Source of the DNA: Candidatus Melainabacteria bacterium
Lineage (GTDB): Bacteria > Cyanobacteriota > Vampirovibrionia > Obscuribacterales > Obscuribacteraceae
Length of the DNA stretch: 64,000 nt
NCBI GenBank assembly: GCA_003963305.1
Contig: RXJR01000009.1
Span: 372,150 to 436,149, forward strand
Direction: 5' to 3'
Part shown: positions 12,440-23,975 of the stretch, one piece after another
How the letters are laid out: each line of letters starts with the position of its first letter
How positions within the stretch are numbered: the stretch's first letter is position 1
Position numbers and translations under genes: made by a program
The notes under the pieces: generated by a model
What the model was told of the DNA's origin: nothing
What the model saw: the letters and a program-made list of their open reading frames with translations, nothing else
Databases searched by the model: none

Positions 12440-12800
12440 GCTCCACACATTTTTTGAATTTTGTCGATTCTGCTTTTTAGTAACAACTCGGTAAGTTCTC
12501 TTGACTACTTTGTAAGCACGGTCGACACCGCAACTGTGCTGAAGGGAACGGCAGCTGAGGCAAGACCGAAATTTATGGAAAAGGGGCAGAGGGCTGGATT
12601 TCGATCCAGTCTTCTTCTTTTCCAGGCACTTTTTGATTGCGCCTTTTAAGAAGTGATGCTCTCAGAGGGGGACGACGCGCCCCGTGGACCTGTGCCCCTG
12701 GTGGGTCCAGACCCGGCGTCCCAGCACTTCAGCTCTGGACCGACTTGACTTGATCGGTCCGGCTTTAATTTGTTGGGCGGAGCTGGACATTAAAGCGCCG
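12440..12800 (+). ncRNA. Candidate structured non-coding RNA with five hairpins
   Basis: About 360 nt without a convincing gene fold into consecutive helices when read by eye. (1) AGCACGGT at 12515-12522 pairs with ACTGTGCT at 12533-12540, with one G-U. (2) GGAAAAG at 12578-12584 pairs with CTTTTCC at 12617-12623, closing a long inner stem capped by CTGGAT-TTCG-ATCCAG at 12594-12609, a UUCG tetraloop. (3) GGACGACGC at ~12670 pairs around to GCGTCC at ~12717, enclosing TGGACC/GGTCCA. (4) GGACCGA and TCGGTCC flank a 10-nt loop at ~12738-12761. (5) GCTTTAAT at 12762-12769 pairs with ATTAAAGC at 12789-12796. I found no match to RNase P RNA, tmRNA, SRP RNA or a known riboswitch core. Ends are approximate and no clear terminator follows, so it could also be the 5' leader of the small-protein gene at 12981. 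Confidence 0.6.
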
Positions 12801-12833
12801 TCGGGTGGGTTTTGAACGTGATTTTTAGTGCGT

Positions 12834-12872: not shown

Positions 12873-12883
12873 TTCGTAACGTC

Positions 12884-12912
12884 TTGGTAACTTTTGAAAA
12901 GTATTCTTCAAT
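12884..12912 (+). promoter_or_regulatory. TTGGTAA element, possible promoter, copy 1
   Basis: TTGGTAA at 12884-12890 could be a -35 with a weak -10 (TTCAAT) 17 bp after TTGGTA. The same word lies at 13464-13470 before the paralogous gene, at the same 91-nt distance from the GTG, and at 22279-22285 before the LysM gene. Conservation across paralogs supports a regulatory role. Confidence 0.45.
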
Positions 12913-13450: not shown

Positions 13451-13463
13451 TGACCGTAATATA

Positions 13464-13492
13464 TTGGTAACGTTCGATTAGTAATCTCTAAG
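13464..13492 (+). promoter_or_regulatory. TTGGTAA element, possible promoter, copy 2
   Basis: TTGGTAACGTT followed by GTAATCTC, 91 nt before the GTG at 13561. The element before the LysM gene (22279) shares both halves, TTGGTAATGTT and GTAATCTC. Any -10 is weak (TCTAAG, 17 bp after TTGGTA). Confidence 0.45.
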
Positions 13493-13948: not shown

Positions 13949-15649
13949 ATGAAAAGACGAGCAGTCGAATATTTGATGGTGGAAGTGGCAGTTCTCTGTT
14001 TTAGCATGTTGCTCGGGTCGAATTTGGCTGCGTTCGGCTTGCCCAGCAGTGCGTTTAGCACGCTTCAACCGCGAGATAGAGATTACTCTCAGACCGAACA
14101 CGGTCGCATGTACAACAAACAGAACTCTGTTGCTTCTGAAGACGACAAATTGGAGACACTGCAGAAGGACGACAAAGCAGAGACTACTTCGGTAAAGTAC
14201 GGAAACAGTTCGCAGGGTGGTGTAACACCAGGAAGCGGTAGCCGGGACATCGAAACGCAAAAGCCTGAGATACAAGCTCAGAAAGTGAAAGAGCAAAATT
14301 TTCAAGACACTTTGACGCAATGGTCCTATTGGAACATCGGTAATGGGGTAAACATAGCTAAGCCGATTCCACCTGGTGGACCAAATTGGTATTCATTTCC
14401 TCCATCGCGTCAAATTCAAGCAAAGCCACAGGCAGCCGCTGCGATGGCTGTTCTTAAATTTCTGCCGCAACTGCCAAAGACTCACGGCAGCGCCATGCCA
14501 TCCAATACAGTCATGCAGGCCAACTATATGGCGACTGCGTTTGCTGCCGGGCAGCTGCTGAACGCTCCCAAACGCCATACTGCGGCTGCTAAAGCCAACC
14601 TGGCAGGTCAGCAACAGGAAATATCGGACTCATCGGCCGGCACTGCAGAAAATGGATTTGCCACTTCTATTGATGGCAGCATGGAACCATTGATTAATGT
14701 GGCGAACGAAGCTGCAGGCACTCCCACTGATGCCGAAGCTGCCACCAAGACTTATTCTCAAGCGATATGGATGGTGCAGCAGATTTACAAGTTCGTTTAT
14801 GTGCCGCTCGCCATATTGTTGTTGCTGCCTGGAGCCATCCTTACCAATCTGAAAGGGTATCTGGCAGGCGGTATCATCGCTTCGCACAACGATGAAGACG
14901 CGGTCAGTCCGTTTAGCGGTATTTTGCGTAGTATCATTGCCATCTTTTTGATTCCGGCCACTCAACTTTTCACGAGTTGGACAATCGACGTCGGTAATTC
15001 GATGACATACGAGGTTGCACAGCACATTCAGCCCGCCGCACTGATGGAGTGGATGCAAGAGCAGAACTTCAATGCTCCCGTCAAGAATGCCAAGAACGCC
15101 TTGAGTGAAGCAACTCAGGGCAAGATGAATGGAAAAATCGATGAAGGTGGAGAAAAGAACTCCACCGTTGAACAACAGGGCTCAGGTACTCGTATGCTGC
15201 AAATGGCGTTCAATATGATGAACGCCGCAATGACTGTTGGTCTGTTGATGATGAATGCTTTTCAAACTGTGATGATTTGCTATCTCTATTTGATGGCACC
15301 AATCGCTGCAGCTTTCTTCGCCTGGCCTTCCGGAGTCGGGACCCTTTTCAAAGCCGTGTTTGCGAATTGGCTTGACGCCCTGATCAATGTTTCTCTGTGG
15401 AAATTTTGGTGGTGTGTGGTCATCCTTTGTATGCAGACACGTTTAGAGTGGCTGATGGAAGCCGGCATGTATAACCCTAATACGACATGGGAAATGGCTA
15501 CCTACACAGCTTTTATGGTGATACTGCTTTATGTTCCGTTCTCTCCGTTTGAGTACAAGCCGGGAGATATGGTGACTCAAATTATGTCCAAAGCCGAGCA
15601 ACTCAAAGATGCCGGCGCATCGAAGGGCGGAAAGAAGGCACACAAATGA
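13949..15649 (+). CDS. Polytopic membrane protein, VirB6/TrbL-like layout, paralog of the next gene
   Basis: The 566-residue product has an N-terminal hydrophobic segment (VEVAVLCFSMLLGSNLAAFG), then ~240 mostly hydrophilic residues, then a membrane region: ~284-305 (VYVPLAILLLLPGAILTNLK), ~325-350 (SIIAIFLIPATQLFTSW), ~416-500 (several segments including YLYLMAPIAAAFFAWP and WKFWWCVVILCM) and ~514-535. The same landmarks (LLLLPGAILT, IAIFLIP, a 'GPI/API..A..AWP' turn, a Trp-rich helix) recur in order in the next gene. Long periplasmic head plus clustered late segments resemble VirB6/TrbL conjugation channel subunits, but I cannot confirm homology and no other type IV secretion gene is in the window. 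The stop overlaps the next ATG (ATGA). Confidence 0.7.
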   Translation: MKRRAVEYLMVEVAVLCFSMLLGSNLAAFGLPSSAFSTLQPRDRDYSQTEHGRMYNKQNSVASEDDKLETLQKDDKAETTSVKYGNSSQGGVTPGSGSRDIETQKPEIQAQKVKEQNFQDTLTQWSYWNIGNGVNIAKPIPPGGPNWYSFPPSRQIQAKPQAAAAMAVLKFLPQLPKTHGSAMPSNTVMQANYMATAFAAGQLLNAPKRHTAAAKANLAGQQQEISDSSAGTAENGFATSIDGSMEPLINVANEAAGTPTDAEAATKTYSQAIWMVQQIYKFVYVPLAILLLLPGAILTNLKGYLAGGIIASHNDEDAVSPFSGILRSIIAIFLIPATQLFTSWTIDVGNSMTYEVAQHIQPAALMEWMQEQNFNAPVKNAKNALSEATQGKMNGKIDEGGEKNSTVEQQGSGTRMLQMAFNMMNAAMTVGLLMMNAFQTVMICYLYLMAPIAAAFFAWPSGVGTLFKAVFANWLDALINVSLWKFWWCVVILCMQTRLEWLMEAGMYNPNTTWEMATYTAFMVILLYVPFSPFEYKPGDMVTQIMSKAEQLKDAGASKGGKKAHK

Positions 15650-18600
15650 AGAATTCAGCGAATCTAGTTCTGGTATTTGTAATTTCTGCCTTGTGTGGAA
15701 TGATGCTCCCTGCCAATGCAGCCAGAACAACCGGCGATATCGGCGATACTGGCGGCGGTCCGACCAAATGGAACGGCATGATGTACCGTGGCGTAGGTGC
15801 ACCGGTTGGAGGACTTGCACCTGTTGACCAGGGCGGCGGCGCCGAGACGAAAGACCAGGCCCAACCGCTGGAAGATTCGGACCTGGCAAAAGCGAGCGCT
15901 GGAAAGTCTACAATCGGTGACGCTCAGACCGGTTTGCCTGCCTCAGCGATCAAGCTGAAGTGGCCAAAAGGTGCTGCCGAAGCCATGAAACGCAACATGG
16001 CCAACACTGATGGTCGCTTGCCGACAAACTCCGAAATGCAACTTTATCTGGCTAACTTTGCAGGCACGCTGGCTGCTGGTGCCAATGCACCAGACAAACA
16101 GATGCACTCTGCTAAAGCCAATCTTGACGCGCAAGGAACTGAGGTCGCCAACGGTATGGCTGATCTTGAGAAGCAGCAAGCTGCGTCGGCGATTGACTTC
16201 TGTTCCAGCTTTTTGAACAACTTCACCACAGACGGTGGCAACAAGTGGAACAAGCTGCGCGACAACATATTCATGCCGATGGCTGTTCTGCTCTTGCTTC
16301 CTGGCGCTATTTTGACCCAGGTGAAAGCGATTATTTCAGCCGGTACACCTGTTCTCGGGCAAGAAACCAATCCATTTGAAGGTATCCAGAGATCCCTGAT
16401 TGCTATCTTCCTGATTCCTGGCACTTATCTTGTTCTCAACTACAGTATCGATTTGAACAACTCGGTCACTTATTCGATTGCCGAGGAGTACACGCGTCTT
16501 TTTGGCTCGGATATGTATCGGGATGCAATATCCTTTCATATTCGCGCTTTCCCTTCGCGTCAACCTGGTGAAAATCGTAACGCTCTCGATCAGCAAACCG
16601 CCAAGATGACTCCGCTGCTGGGAGGAAAAACCGCTTTCGCACTGTTCGAAGGCAAGATGATCGAAAACAAGATCGAAGATCCGGTTGCCAAAATTTATCA
16701 GGCGCCAATGGATCGAGCTGATGAAGCGCTTCCTAGTTCTGCAATCATGGCGAAGACCATGTTCAATAGTACCAATGCGACATTTATGATTGCCTGGAAC
16801 ATTCTGTGCGCTTTCCAGATGGTCTATTTTTACTATCTCTGGTTTGTCGGACCGATTACTGCAGCCCTCTGGGCCTGGCCGATGAAAACTTTGCGCAACG
16901 CCTTCCCGAGCTGGTGTGAAGGTGTAATCACGCTTGGTTTCTGGTCACTTTTCTGGAATACTTCCATTTTGCTGATGGCATGTTTCAGAGGCGTCGACGA
17001 AACCGGCACTTTGATTTTGACCGCCTTGAATTTCCTTGCTACTTCGTCTGTAAAATATGCCTTCGACTTTGCTGGTCTGGCTAAAGCTGCTGGTCAAGAA
17101 GCTGCTCAGATGGCTGAGAAAGCCATGAACGCCGCCAAAGGCGGTGGCGGCGGCGGTGGCGGTGGCGGCGGTAAAGGAGGACATGCCGGTCACAAGGGTG
17201 GTCATGGTCATGGCACCGGACATCAGCCGCATCATCCTCATCATGCCGGTGAAGCCCTTCCTGGTGGGCCGAAGGTTACCGATGCTGGAGAAGGCAAGAG
17301 AGAACTTGCCGGTCTGCCACTCAATGATCGTTTAGTCGCTCTCAACAAAGATGCCGATGAACGTGGCGGTCGCATTCGGGTCGCTTCACTCGATCCTGAT
17401 GCCGGTTTCCGTGAACTTGCTGCCAAACAGCCACCACCGCCAATCGACGGTGACGACAAGGCCGTACGTCAACTGCCTGGCGATAGCTTCACCGTCGGCG
17501 ACGGCGGTTCCGGTGGTCACATGTTCACGCGTTCAATGGTCGACGGTAAGCCTGTCTTGACTGTTACAGACATGGAAGGAAATGCCGTTAAAGGAATGGA
17601 CGGCAAAGATCTTGGTCCGATCAGTTTGAGCGACATTCCGGAGAACGGCTCCAAGTCCATATCTTTCGACCCTGATCCAACTACCGGTAAGCCTCGTGGT
17701 TCCATCGACATTCAGCAGGGTAGTCACGGTGGTCAGCTTTACCACGCTTCAAGCCATGGCCATAGTGAATTGGTCTCTTACAGCGGCGGTCACCTGAGCG
17801 GACATTCCTCTGCAGCGGTCGACGCTGGTATGCATGCGTCGATGATGGATGGTAAACCGGTAGCAGAGCTGCAACCTGGGTTGTTCTACGGCACTGACGC
17901 TAACGGCAACGGTGCCCTGTACGATATCGATCATAATCAGATCAATTTTGATGCTAATGGTGATGCCACTCTTGCCGATGGCAGAAGTCTGCATATGGAA
18001 GACGGACCAGACGGTTACTCCACGCTCTCTGTCAATGGCTCCGATCTGTATGCTTTGTCAGCCAGCAATGCCGGATTGAGTGTCTCGCATGGCGATGCTA
18101 CGCACGATCCCTATCATCATCCGATCAACAGCCTCGCCCTCAGTCGCGATGCCAATGGTGCCGTACACTCGTCTCTCTTCAACGAAAATGGTCAGCGCAC
18201 AGAGTCCGCAACCATGTTCGGAGCAGATACTCAGCGAGCCTACTACAATCCTGATAGCCAGGCGTTGCTCGGTTACAGCAACACACACAATTTCGACAAC
18301 GGCGACTCCGTCACCAACTTCTATAGAGACGATAATTCGCTCGTCGGCACCAACATGTATCAAATGACCGACGACGGTTTCAGAGAAACTGTTTTCGATG
18401 CCAGTGGCAATCCAGTAAGCATGCAGCAGACATCTTACGATGATAATGGCTACTCACTGACCACAGCTAATTTCGTCGATGGAAATGTCAGCAATGCCTC
18501 CGTCAGCCAGTTCGACAATTCCGGCACGTTCCTGTCGAGTCAGCCGTTGGATTACCGACAGATGCAATCTATTGGCGGTGATGTAAGCGCACTCAGCCAG

Positions 18601-21018
18601 TACTCAAACAGCTACTCTCAGGGCGTCGTGCCTGACGGCAACGTATTCGGCTCGACTCCATCTCGGTCTGCCGATGGTTACACCGTTGGACCGCCTGCAC
18701 AGCAAGTTGAAGTTGCGAACAACTACAGCACGCCATTTACTTCGGGCAAGGTCGATGTGGTGCCGCCTCAGATGTTCGATCCAAAGACGATGGCCGAACA
18801 AAAGATCGACTATGCAACTCCTCAGGCGCCACAAACGTGGGCAAAAGTCGAGGCACCGGCACTCAACTCCGGCAGCAACGACGCACCGAAAGTGATGCCT
18901 GTCGATATAGCAGGAACACAGTTGCCATCCAGCAAAGACTTCAGTCAGATAGATGGTGCTTACGCCGCCAATCAATCCAGCCAGGGGCAGTATGCCGAAG
19001 TCGCATATAGCAATCCTGTGGTCACATCATCTGTCGATATCATGCCTCCACAGGTGCTCGATACGACGCCAATGGCTTATCAGCAAGCTGAATTGGCGGC
19101 GCCGAGTGCTTCACTTGAGAGCCAGATGGCTAACCAGGTGGGCGGTTTGAGTGTAACGGCCGATAACTCTGCCACGTCATTTACGTTCAACGACAATAAC
19201 GCACCGCCAACGGGTGGATTTGTGGCACGGGAAGCTGCGCCCGACATCCAGGCAACTGTGCCAGTTCCTGGTGCCGGGCAAAACAATACGGTGTTGCCTG
19301 TCGATATCGCCGGAACGCAGTTGAACGACAACAAGGCAGCACTCGAACTTTCGCAGAATTCACAAATTGAGGGCGCATACGCCGCCAATCAATCAAGCCA
19401 GGGTCAAACTGCCGAGGTCGCTTATAGCAGCCCAGTCACTACAAGCAGTGTCGAAGTTGCTCCTCCTATCGCGCTTGATTCCACTCCGATGTCTTACCAG
19501 CAAGCTGAATTGAATGCGCCAAAAGCATCTCTGGAAAGCCAGATGGCTCATCAAGTCGGTGGACTGAGTGTGACATCTGATACTACGGCGAATACATTCA
19601 ACTTCGGTGATGCCCAGGGACCGCCTGCCAGCAGTTTTGTGTCCAAAGATTCTGCACCAGATGTGAATCACTTCGCGGCGGTAGTTCCTCAGAACAATAC
19701 GCCTCAGACCAATACGGTATTGCCAGTTGATATTGCCGGCACTCAGGGTGCGGGCGAGAATAAGGCTGCCCTTGAGTTGGCTCAAAATGCGCAGATTCAA
19801 GGTGCATATGCCGCTAACAATTCCAGTCAGGGGCAGACAGCTGAAGTGGCTTACACCACGCCGGTGACGACCAGCAATATCGACATCGCGCCGCCGATTG
19901 TGCTTGACCAGACTCCGATTGCCAACCCCCAGTATGACTCTCTCTCGGTGCCACCATCCCTTGAGACGGTGATGTCGCACCAGGTCGGCAATGTAAGTGC
20001 CGGAACTGAAAATATTGCTCAAGCAGATGCGCCTCAAGTAGCTATGCGCGATGCTGCGCCAGCGGACCAGACTTATGTCACACATGCGCCTCAGTATGGC
20101 GACAGCACCTACACCAACCCTGTCACAACAAGCCAGGTTGATGTAGTGCCACCGGGTGTGGTGTATGACAACGATCAAACCGTCCTCAATCAGGGTTCTG
20201 TAAACGCTCAGCAACCGGAAGTGAGCCATGCCGGGACTCCAGTTTACGGTCAGCCGCGCACCGAATCAGTTGCTCAATTGGCTTCTGCTGCTGCTCTAGC
20301 TTCGAACGCGCAACAGAATCTGCTTGGAGAGCCCAAAGTCGAGCACCGAACGACTCACGGACCAGGCTCGCCTGCTATGCCGAAGCGTGGTCTGGGAACG
20401 ATCTTCTCTGATATCACTATGGGCAAGAAGACTGTAAAGCCCAACCAGAAAGATCCGAAGATGGATCCAAATGTTCAACAAAAAGGTGGTGTTGTCGCAC
20501 AACCGGGACATTTGAACGATCCTAACGCGCCAGGTAAGCCCGTAGACGCTACAAAACTGATGGGCAAGATGCGCAATACCGTAGACGCCGAAACGACCAT
20601 GCAAATGTCGACCGGACAGTCTCTGGAAAAACAGATGATCCAGGCTGGCAGTCATGTTCAGGCGGTGCCGTCCAATACTCTCAACAGCATACTTGGGAAG
20701 ACCAGCGCGGCTGTTCCGCAGAAGCCCAGCGAGCATCTGAACAATGCGCTAGTGGATTATCATACGGTTGCTGCCTTGATTCACGAAGGCAAAACAAATG
20801 AAGCTGCACTGGTCTCAGGTAATGCATTAGCTAACATCTCACGCTGTTCCGGTACTGAGCCACAACTGCTGCCACTTGTGCGCGCTTTTGTTGAGCTCTT
20901 CAACCAGAAGCATATGATCCATCAAGCGAAAGCGTTCGCTGAAAAGGAAAAAGCGCTGGATGAACTGGCTAAGACTGCCGCTGCTGCCAACAAGAACGAT
21001 AATGTTTGGGGTTCCTAA
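15646..21018 (+). CDS. Giant membrane-anchored repeat protein (1790 aa), paralog of the upstream membrane protein with long repeat tail
   Basis: Signal-like N-terminus (LVLVFVISALCGMMLPANAA). Residues ~205-475 repeat the upstream gene's membrane region: PMAVLLLLPGAILTQVK (~210), IAIFLIPGTYLVLNYSIDLN (~252), FYYLWFVGPITAALWAWP (~392), WSLFWNTSILLMACF. A poly-Gly then Gly/His-rich linker (~496-540) joins a long extracytoplasmic-looking tail. Residues ~560-1080 are Asp/Gly/Ser/Asn-rich with many short 'DANG/DGxS' turns, suggesting beta structure. Residues 1083-1500 hold three long repeats each starting V(M/L)PVDIAGTQ. Residues ~1700-1790 are helical. Start ATG overlaps the previous stop, so the two proteins are made together. 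A palindromic repeat starts 6 nt after the stop. Function unknown; an envelope-spanning export or adhesion machine is an inference. Confidence 0.75.
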   Translation: MKNSANLVLVFVISALCGMMLPANAARTTGDIGDTGGGPTKWNGMMYRGVGAPVGGLAPVDQGGGAETKDQAQPLEDSDLAKASAGKSTIGDAQTGLPASAIKLKWPKGAAEAMKRNMANTDGRLPTNSEMQLYLANFAGTLAAGANAPDKQMHSAKANLDAQGTEVANGMADLEKQQAASAIDFCSSFLNNFTTDGGNKWNKLRDNIFMPMAVLLLLPGAILTQVKAIISAGTPVLGQETNPFEGIQRSLIAIFLIPGTYLVLNYSIDLNNSVTYSIAEEYTRLFGSDMYRDAISFHIRAFPSRQPGENRNALDQQTAKMTPLLGGKTAFALFEGKMIENKIEDPVAKIYQAPMDRADEALPSSAIMAKTMFNSTNATFMIAWNILCAFQMVYFYYLWFVGPITAALWAWPMKTLRNAFPSWCEGVITLGFWSLFWNTSILLMACFRGVDETGTLILTALNFLATSSVKYAFDFAGLAKAAGQEAAQMAEKAMNAAKGGGGGGGGGGGKGGHAGHKGGHGHGTGHQPHHPHHAGEALPGGPKVTDAGEGKRELAGLPLNDRLVALNKDADERGGRIRVASLDPDAGFRELAAKQPPPPIDGDDKAVRQLPGDSFTVGDGGSGGHMFTRSMVDGKPVLTVTDMEGNAVKGMDGKDLGPISLSDIPENGSKSISFDPDPTTGKPRGSIDIQQGSHGGQLYHASSHGHSELVSYSGGHLSGHSSAAVDAGMHASMMDGKPVAELQPGLFYGTDANGNGALYDIDHNQINFDANGDATLADGRSLHMEDGPDGYSTLSVNGSDLYALSASNAGLSVSHGDATHDPYHHPINSLALSRDANGAVHSSLFNENGQRTESATMFGADTQRAYYNPDSQALLGYSNTHNFDNGDSVTNFYRDDNSLVGTNMYQMTDDGFRETVFDASGNPVSMQQTSYDDNGYSLTTANFVDGNVSNASVSQFDNSGTFLSSQPLDYRQMQSIGGDVSALSQYSNSYSQGVVPDGNVFGSTPSRSADGYTVGPPAQQVEVANNYSTPFTSGKVDVVPPQMFDPKTMAEQKIDYATPQAPQTWAKVEAPALNSGSNDAPKVMPVDIAGTQLPSSKDFSQIDGAYAANQSSQGQYAEVAYSNPVVTSSVDIMPPQVLDTTPMAYQQAELAAPSASLESQMANQVGGLSVTADNSATSFTFNDNNAPPTGGFVAREAAPDIQATVPVPGAGQNNTVLPVDIAGTQLNDNKAALELSQNSQIEGAYAANQSSQGQTAEVAYSSPVTTSSVEVAPPIALDSTPMSYQQAELNAPKASLESQMAHQVGGLSVTSDTTANTFNFGDAQGPPASSFVSKDSAPDVNHFAAVVPQNNTPQTNTVLPVDIAGTQGAGENKAALELAQNAQIQGAYAANNSSQGQTAEVAYTTPVTTSNIDIAPPIVLDQTPIANPQYDSLSVPPSLETVMSHQVGNVSAGTENIAQADAPQVAMRDAAPADQTYVTHAPQYGDSTYTNPVTTSQVDVVPPGVVYDNDQTVLNQGSVNAQQPEVSHAGTPVYGQPRTESVAQLASAAALASNAQQNLLGEPKVEHRTTHGPGSPAMPKRGLGTIFSDITMGKKTVKPNQKDPKMDPNVQQKGGVVAQPGHLNDPNAPGKPVDATKLMGKMRNTVDAETTMQMSTGQSLEKQMIQAGSHVQAVPSNTLNSILGKTSAAVPQKPSEHLNNALVDYHTVAALIHEGKTNEAALVSGNALANISRCSGTEPQLLPLVRAFVELFNQKHMIHQAKAFAEKEKALDELAKTAAAANKNDNVWGS
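17141..17260 (+). repeat. Glycine/histidine-rich linker-coding repeat
   Basis: A run of GGC/GGT codons encodes eleven consecutive glycines, followed by a stretch rich in Gly-His pairs (HAGHKGGHGHGTGHQPHHPHH). It separates the membrane domain from the large tail of the 1790-residue protein. The His cluster could bind metal, which is only an inference. Confidence 0.85.
18892..20160 (+). repeat. Three long in-frame repeats (~133-142 residues each)
   Basis: Units start at 18892, 19291 and 19717 with the word V(M/L)PVDIAGTQ. Each continues through (I)xGAYAANxSSQGQxAEVAY, PVxTSxxxxxPPxxLDxTP, LESQMAxQVGG-like and ends in a Pro/Ala-rich spacer. Unit lengths are 399 and 426 nt. A degenerate half unit lies just upstream (~18700). 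Silent differences between copies show they are not recent duplicates. Confidence 0.85.
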
Positions 21019-21173: not shown

Positions 21174-21872
21174 CTAAGATGTAGCAGCCGGAGGGTTGCC
21201 AAAGAGATCGATCTGATAACCAATTCTGTGGACTGTGCGAATTATAGAAGGTTGATCTGGTACGTCGATTTTGTTTCGTAATCTGGTTATGCAAACGCGC
21301 ACCGTATCTGGTGAGGCATCTGAGTCTGAACTCCATATACGAGACAACAGCGATTCTACGCTAAAGGCATCGTTAGGATTGCGCAATAGAAACTCAAGCA
21401 GGGAAAATTCTTTGGGCTGCAGTTTTATTTCCTTTCCATCTCTGGAGACGCGGTGTTTTGGTATATCGACCTCTAATCCGCGAATTTTGAAAATCTGTTC
21501 GTACACCTTGTTTTGTCTGCGCATCAGGGCTTTGACACGCGCTGACAGCTCACGGACATTGCAGGGTTTGGTCAAATAGTCGTCGGCGCCGGCATTCAGT
21601 CCCGTTTCAATTTCAGCTACACCATCACGCCCCGTCAGGAGGAGAATCGGCGTCATGCCACCTCGGTCTCGGAATTCTTTGAGAATCTCGATACCTGTAA
21701 CTTCAGGTAGATTCCAGTCCAGGATCACCACATCAAACTCAAAGAACTTCAATCGTTCGAGCGCGTCGTTGCCGCGTTCGCAGTATTCGACGTTATGGTG
21801 CTCAAGCTCTAGCCAATCTATTAAGCTTCGAGCCAGCTCGGTATCGTCTTCGACTAGTAAGATCTTCGCCAT
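21174..21872 (-). CDS. OmpR/PhoB-family response regulator
   Basis: ATG 21872 gives MAKILLVEDDTELARSL, the normal start of a receiver domain; the frame extends to 21920 but those residues are atypical. The 232-residue product has the acidic pair at residues 9-10, phospho-acceptor D52 in VVILDWNLP, Thr in ILLLTGRDG and Lys in DDYLTKPCN. Residues ~130-225 form a winged-helix DNA-binding domain (IKLQPKEFSLLEFLLRNP, TVRVCITRLRNKID, IRTVHRIGYQ). No histidine kinase gene is adjacent, so it is an orphan here and its signal is unknown. Confidence 0.95.
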   Translation of the reverse strand: MAKILLVEDDTELARSLIDWLELEHHNVEYCERGNDALERLKFFEFDVVILDWNLPEVTGIEILKEFRDRGGMTPILLLTGRDGVAEIETGLNAGADDYLTKPCNVRELSARVKALMRRQNKVYEQIFKIRGLEVDIPKHRVSRDGKEIKLQPKEFSLLEFLLRNPNDAFSVESLLSRIWSSDSDASPDTVRVCITRLRNKIDVPDQPSIIRTVHRIGYQIDLFGNPPAATS

Positions 21873-22124
21873 TGAGACCGTTTTGGACAGGATTCGGGGA
21901 GCAACCAGTTCACCGGGCATTTGGACCGAGGTTGTGGGATCGAGGCTATAGGCTTAAATCCGGGCTTGGCCACGAACGGTATAAACCAATAGCAGCATCA
22001 TCAGTTTACCCTCTTAACTGCCTAAACATGCAGGACCAGGAAAAATCTGTTAAAGCCCTTTTCATCGTATAGGCTAGAGTTTGGAAACCCTCGGCGGCTC
22101 CATGATTCACAGCCAGGTTTTTTG

Positions 22125-22463: not shown

Positions 22464-23975
22464 ATGAGCACTCGCGATTGTACCCCTCAAAGATCTGAAC
22501 GCATCGACCATCGGGACGGTGGAGAACGCTCGGCTTCAATGCAGTCGACCGATCGGGTGGCTTTGCTGAAAGAAGGCGCTTCCATTAATCGCTATATTTC
22601 TCCGACGGCGGAGCGTTACTTGCCTAATGTGACTATCGATCAGAGGCTCGGGTCAGCTTATGGTCGTTGCGATAATGGTACCGAAGTTAACAATCGCAAT
22701 TTCGATCCTCGCAATCTACAGAATCAGTTTGACCCTAGATATGGTGCAGATCGGCGAAGTTTCGATCCGCGCAACGGCGACCCGAGGTTTGACCCGCGCA
22801 ACGGCGGTGATCCCAGACTTGATCCGCGCAACGGGGGTGACCCGAGGTTTGACCCGCGCAACGGCGGTGATCCCAGACTTGATCCGCGCAACGGGGGTGA
22901 CCCGCGATTGGATCCGCGTAACGGGCGCGACCCAAGATTGGATTCCCAGAGTTTTGCACCAGATGGTCAGATGCGCGATCATACCGTGCAAAGGGGCGAC
23001 AGCCTCTGGAAGATAGCCCGTAATGCTTTAAGAGAGTCCGGTCAACCGGCCAGTGCCCGCGATATCATGAATGCCATTCGCAGTATTGTTGAGGCGAACA
23101 AAGCCGAGCATCCGTCGCTGGCGAATAATCCCAATTTGATTATCGATGGATGGCACTTAAAGATTCCTGTCGGTGGACAGGATGCCTCAAGAGCAGATGG
23201 AACTCGCGACCTCTATCAGTTCGGCGGAGATAGGCGTCAGCAACGCACCAGATACGATGGCGGAGACGCATACTTTGATCAGCGTGATGGTGCATATCAA
23301 AGACCCTACGGTGAGGGACCAGGTGAGTTCAGAGGACGCAGGCACAGTCGGGGAGACTGGTCTGGCCGCGAGTACGGTACGGATCCTTACGGGCGACGAA
23401 TTCCTTACGACAGAAACGGTGAGCCATATCCGTATGAGCGGAGTCCGAACCCATATGGGCGCAATCCTTATGAGAGAAATCCATACGAGCAAAATCCTTA
23501 TAGGCGGGGGCCATACGACTCCAATCCATATGCTCGTCCGCCTGGTTACGGGCAGGATGCAGCCAACCAACCTATGAATCCGCTCTCGATGGCTTTACGC
23601 GAAGCCGCTCTTCTGGCGGCTCGCGGTATGCAAACTATTGGTCGTTGTGCCGCGGGAGTGCAAGTGGCATTGGCGCGAATTGGACATGGTCAATTCATGG
23701 GATCAGGCAACGCCTGGGATATGGGTGCGAAAATGGCGCGCAGTGGAAAGTTCGACGTACTTCCTCTCTCCGAGGCGCGTGAGGGCGACGTCATCGTGCG
23801 GAGTTGGAATCGAAATGTAATCGCTCAAAACCGTGGACGGAATTGGGGTGATATTGTCGTGGTCACTTCTCGCGACAGTCGTGGTAACCTCATGGGCGCA
23901 AACGATCATCACGGAAGAATTCCTCCAGATGGTGGACGCTACACTAACAGTTACGTTTTGCGTTGCCGAACTTGA
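22464..23975 (+). CDS. LysM protein with DPRNGG repeats and C-terminal CHAP/NlpC-like domain
   Basis: The 503-residue product has four parts. Residues ~80-160 are tandem ten-residue units DPRNGGDPR(L/F). Residues ~172-238 are a LysM peptidoglycan-binding domain (HTVQRGDSLWKIARN to DGWHLKIPVGG), with an unusually long insert. Residues ~250-370 are Tyr/Arg/Pro/Gly-rich (repeated NPYERNPYE words). Residues ~375-503 look like a papain-fold cell-wall peptidase or amidase: Cys395 at a helix start (GRCAAGVQVALARIG), AREGDVIV, then WGDIVVVTS and ANDHHGRIP. In CHAP and NlpC/P60 enzymes a His usually stands where this has Asp (GHVAIV versus GDIVVV), so the catalytic His may be one of the later pair or absent. 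No signal peptide is evident. Confidence 0.78.
   Translation: MSTRDCTPQRSERIDHRDGGERSASMQSTDRVALLKEGASINRYISPTAERYLPNVTIDQRLGSAYGRCDNGTEVNNRNFDPRNLQNQFDPRYGADRRSFDPRNGDPRFDPRNGGDPRLDPRNGGDPRFDPRNGGDPRLDPRNGGDPRLDPRNGRDPRLDSQSFAPDGQMRDHTVQRGDSLWKIARNALRESGQPASARDIMNAIRSIVEANKAEHPSLANNPNLIIDGWHLKIPVGGQDASRADGTRDLYQFGGDRRQQRTRYDGGDAYFDQRDGAYQRPYGEGPGEFRGRRHSRGDWSGREYGTDPYGRRIPYDRNGEPYPYERSPNPYGRNPYERNPYEQNPYRRGPYDSNPYARPPGYGQDAANQPMNPLSMALREAALLAARGMQTIGRCAAGVQVALARIGHGQFMGSGNAWDMGAKMARSGKFDVLPLSEAREGDVIVRSWNRNVIAQNRGRNWGDIVVVTSRDSRGNLMGANDHHGRIPPDGGRYTNSYVLRCRT
22765..22947 (+). repeat. 30-nt tandem coding repeats (DPRNGG)
   Basis: Six 30-nt units of the type GATCCGCGCAACGGCGGTGA + CCCGAGGCTT lie in tandem, also visible as a 60-nt higher-order unit with two nearly identical copies. 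The near-identity suggests recent expansion by slippage. Confidence 0.85.

Follow-up and report, generated by a model that had tools for sequence, protein, structure and literature searches.

The DNA that separates dnaK, a heat-shock gene, from a small-protein gene cluster in the 7.48-Mb genome of an uncultured, non-photosynthetic relative of the Cyanobacteria, raises the question of whether an RNA is encoded there, how far it extends and how it might act. The window referred to below is the whole 64,000-nt stretch of DNA that was analysed. An original prediction had placed a 360-nt unassigned RNA with five consecutive hairpins at 12440–12800. Conservation, synteny, a promoter and a terminator together give good support to an RNA gene at this place, and 12480–12622 is best read as a stand-alone small RNA gene.

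Extent and conservation of the RNA locus

The two congeners (G001 and G002) align with just three islands of the DNA from dnaK to the first small-protein gene. These are the dnaK leader, the RNA with its promoter, and the promoter region of the next gene. The RNA and its promoter are syntenic in all three genomes of the genus, and the RNA is 90–93% identical in all three species pairs. Identity is 35–40% in the 85 nt directly upstream of the RNA. At the fourfold-degenerate sites of the adjacent dnaK, identity is 38–43%, and the contrast with the RNA points to strong purifying selection. This contrast with neutral sites is the strongest sequence evidence for a gene. The predicted span of 12440–12800 was too long, as the RNA itself is about 105 nt (Table 1) and positions 12626–12800 align with neither congener.

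At the sequence level, the short unit is bounded by its own promoter and its own terminator and is conserved without coding capacity, as in independently transcribed small RNAs. The promoter and terminator together suggest that the RNA is transcribed, and a functional RNA gene at the locus is very probable.

Clear homologues occur in only two of the 98 other genomes searched, both from the same genus. The two matches cover query positions 76–222 at 89% identity and 78–222 at 85% identity, corresponding to about 12475–12621 of the window. No further credible homologue was found in a 23-mer search allowing up to three mismatches, in a covariance-model search (with a model that included noisy flanks) or in an exact-pattern scan of one genome per species across 84,980 species. 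Phage, plasmid and viral collections contain no match to the locus, and an origin from these sources was rejected on this ground. Weak covariance matches in G004, G034 and G044 (E 0.01–0.4) were judged by inspection to be chance. A match in G013, from the same family (L012, the same sequence as L056), sits in an open reading frame resembling an efflux outer-membrane protein and was rejected, as were database matches L054, L055 and L059, which have nothing further in common with the window. On these searches the RNA appears to be genus-specific; the genus is known from three genomes, and all of them carry it.

Table 1. Features of the RNA locus and its surroundings (window coordinates)
Feature	Position	Strand	Description or basis
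RNA promoter	12480–12511	+	GTAAC-N5-GGTAAG direct repeat (11-bp period), 10-nt spacer, TACTTT -10-like box; same place in three congeners
Putative small RNA, about 105 nt	12517–12622	+	Start inferred from -10-like box, end from terminator
5' domain	12519–12568	+	Closing helix CGGUC/GACCG, hairpin GCUG-AAGGGAACGG-CAGC; RNAalifold consensus
Invariant core GUGCUGAAGGGAACGGCAGCUGAGGC	12536–12561	+	26 nt identical in three genomes; candidate interaction region
Intrinsic terminator	12588–12622	+	12-bp stem, UUCG loop, U-rich tail; terminator scan
Motif copy ahead of first small-protein gene	12876–12907	+	
Small protein 1, about 72 aa	12999–13214	+	Genus-restricted; likely co-regulated
Motif copy ahead of second small-protein gene	13456–13487	+	
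Small protein 2, 79 aa	13561–13797	+	Paralogue of small protein 1; likely co-regulated
First predicted membrane protein	13949–15649		
OmpR-family response regulator	21174–21920	-	Candidate regulator of motif; 97% identical in G001, same place

Predicted fold and relation to known RNAs

The original prediction of more structure than in random DNA is borne out by comparison with shuffled sequences, both for 12440–12810 (z -2.07) and, most strongly, for 12517–12625 (z -4.25). The promoter-containing stretch at 12440–12516 shows no excess structure (z +0.9), and 12626–12800 has a z of -1.2 on the + strand. In place of five consecutive hairpins in one RNA there are two structural parts, and the last 175 bases are unconserved. 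A hairpin at about 12736–12761 is individually strong (z -3.2 for 12725–12765) but unconserved, and the nested GC-rich helix that had been described folds no better than shuffles (12664–12730, z +0.65). The long stem capped by UUCG was recovered by the terminator scan, with 12 pairs at 12588–12615.

The terminator half has a z of -3.8 to -4.5 in the three species and is the source of the excess structure of the RNA. Taken by itself, the 5' domain does not stand out from the shuffles (z -0.8 to -1.4). All nine pairs of the 5' domain are invariant in the three genomes, with no covariation for or against. In the terminator, three pairs vary on one side only and all remain standard pairs. In the three helices counted, the three sequences contain neither two-sided (compensatory) changes nor broken pairs. 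Both the observation that was to support the original prediction, two or more stems with covarying pairs, and one that was to refute it, substitutions that break pairs, are thus absent. With three sequences, the 5' fold is neither proved nor refuted.

As predicted, the RNA matches no common family. Rfam returns no match at the gathering score in the window and none over the RNA at E values up to 10, so any Rfam family or riboswitch identity was rejected. The window contains no tRNA or tmRNA. The core loosely resembles cobalamin-riboswitch letters; this resemblance was dropped, as there is no match. 6S RNA is likewise a stand-alone bacterial RNA, but it differs from the RNA at this locus in that RF00013 has no match in the window. 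The window's genome carries a 6S-like RNA on a different contig (G000:C33:101302–101518, L016; 40 bits, below the Rfam cut-off), with a similar match in G002, and 6S identity was rejected for the present locus. Hfq was found in none of the three genomes in searches whose controls work, and an Hfq-dependent small RNA was rejected on this ground.

Promoter motif, neighbouring genes and putative regulon

The promoter expected in front of the RNA is present as a direct repeat with a -10-like box, but a scan with the sigma-70 consensus gives no match there. In general form, the motif ahead of the RNA in the three genomes is GTAAY-N5-GGTAAN, 10 nt, TANNNT. Genome-wide, it occurs at 12, 10 and 9 sites in the three genomes, whereas the reversed control gives 1, 1 and 3; a stricter form occurs at 10, 8 and 9 sites and its control at 1, 0 and 0. 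The motif is nearly absent from other genera of the family (three sites in G005, one each in G013 and G021). The frames directly behind it include those for the two small proteins, for large low-complexity proteins, one of which has a chitosanase-family domain, and for a GHMP kinase.

The geometry of the motif resembles that of OmpR/PhoB-family boxes such as those of WalR. The WalR/VicR-type box is TGTWAH-N5-TGTWAH (PMC4168254). Like it, the motif at this locus (NGTAAY-N5-GGTAAN) has two hexamers of similar letters and a 5-nt spacer, but its second half-site starts with GG rather than TG. A repeat with a period of about 11 bp upstream of the -10 box and a regulator encoded nearby are consistent with an OmpR/PhoB-type regulon in which binding is predicted. 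The OmpR-family regulator gene lies 8.6 kb from the RNA and adjoins a gene carrying the motif. Its product, which falls short of each of the NCBIfam equivalog cut-offs shown, may bind the motif.

The small-protein family (72–79 aa) is genus-restricted, has conserved ends (NPSNVHAFF...DFGVGLPPL) and matches no Pfam or NCBIfam entry. Further members are present at G000:C20:64184–64405, G001:C16:805–1026 and G002:C80:17416–17607. Every copy at the RNA locus stands behind the common promoter motif. Both G001 and G002 carry a histidine-kinase-like gene in the interval from dnaK to the RNA, in the same orientation (L009:5804–7489, +; L010:8273–9883, -). The window lacks the gene at that place, and the closest homologues that its genome has to offer are only 31–43% identical. 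Two paralogous predicted membrane proteins of 566 and 1790 aa, the latter with a long repetitive tail, are encoded at 13949–21018 of the window and have no Pfam match. Large low-complexity proteins stand behind the motif on several contigs (L068, L070, L071 and L073; window 22464–23975). These putative regulon members have weak LysM, weak annexin and GH75 chitosanase matches. Downstream of 33107 on G000:C8 (L025, L069), a motif site is followed by a 1668-base stretch that reads N, which masks the gene behind the site.

Possible modes of action

The favoured reading, by analogy with PsrR1, is that of a trans-acting base-pairing small RNA in a response-regulator regulon. PsrR1 is a small RNA in the RpaB regulon of Synechocystis, in which the HLR1 box (KTTACAWW-N2-KTTACAWW) mediates activation or repression depending on its position (PMC13421787). 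The likeness is one of working: PsrR1 acts in trans and is controlled by an OmpR-family response regulator whose recognition site is a direct-repeat box, as is proposed here. The box at this locus differs from HLR1 in having an 11-bp period and lying close to the -10 box, and no sequence relation between PsrR1 and the present RNA was found (no Rfam match).

In the proposed mechanism, an OmpR/PhoB-family response regulator would bind the 11-bp direct repeat, and transcription would start at about 12517. The transcript of roughly 105 nt would stop at the UUCG-capped terminator. The RNA would then act in trans. The most likely means would be base-pairing, independent of Hfq, with the core as the likely interaction region. 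The RNA would form the post-transcriptional arm of a regulon whose other members include the neighbouring small proteins and the large low-complexity proteins. Base-pairing independent of Hfq is common. The identity of the regulator and the action by base-pairing in trans are inferred, and the reading as a whole, with regulator and mechanism as proposed, is given slightly better than even odds (about 0.55).

Against nine start regions of neighbouring or co-regulated genes, the complementarity of the RNA is limited to exact runs of at most 7 nt, which are unconserved. A genome search with the core returns a single notable site ahead of a start codon, a 13-bp pairing in the leader of a gene for a 288-aa protein (L090). 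This leader was rejected as a target because its orthologues retain the leader and lose the pairing. A leader upstream of a 288-aa Q/Y/R-rich protein (L094, L095 and L096) is strongly conserved in the three species and contains TTGACA and TATAAG-like boxes.

Among the alternatives, the RNA could sequester a protein in the manner of CsrB or 6S RNA, through the AAGGGAA loop and the AUGGAAAAGGGG linker. In favour are two ANGGA-like sites and the invariance of the purine-rich segments that remain unpaired. However, CsrA was found in none of the three genomes in searches whose controls work, on which ground a CsrA sponge of the CsrB/RsmZ type was rejected; the 6S-like locus sits on another contig; and the RNA has no known RNA-binding partner. 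Sequestration is considered unlikely.

A cis-acting leader or attenuator, in which the 5' domain senses a signal and the terminator sets read-through into the downstream small-protein gene, is less likely again. A closed 5' domain and then a terminator, with a gene further downstream in the same orientation, is an order of elements that would suit it. However, past the terminator the small-protein gene is preceded by a promoter copy of its own, which makes a leader role unlikely. About 200 nt of unconserved sequence also separate the terminator from the gene, and inspection revealed no alternative pairing of the 5' domain with the terminator arm that would act as an antiterminator.

It is quite improbable that the locus is a DNA-level element, an array of regulator-binding sites with a transcription barrier, rather than an RNA gene. 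Such an element would fit a regulator-type motif at one end and a terminator at the other. It would not account for the 70 nt between promoter and terminator, which are 90–95% identical and thus as well conserved as the terminator, and a conserved terminator placed 105 nt after a promoter implies that the transcript is short. There is also a slim chance that the invariant core works without a known mechanistic counterpart, for example through a structural partnership with the co-regulated small proteins or neighbouring membrane proteins, instead of by ordinary antisense pairing. A short peptide encoded by the conserved stretch can be largely set aside, since within the otherwise identical sequence indels of 1 and 2 nt shift the reading frame of the core and of the purine-rich stretch from one genome to another, identity runs of at least 25 nt lack third-position changes, and the available frames (62 codons from a TTG at 12461–12649 in the window's genome and 85 codons in G002) continue through the terminator.

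Literature searches returned no paper dealing with small regulatory RNAs in these organisms. On the sequence evidence, the RNA would be a narrowly distributed, new example of a bacterial small RNA, with a mechanism much less certain than its status as a gene. Its setting is a group of non-photosynthetic cyanobacterial relatives in which Hfq and CsrA were not detected. As a well-bounded candidate with a shared motif, it makes a whole putative regulon testable, comprising the small RNA, the small proteins, the large low-complexity proteins and the response regulator.
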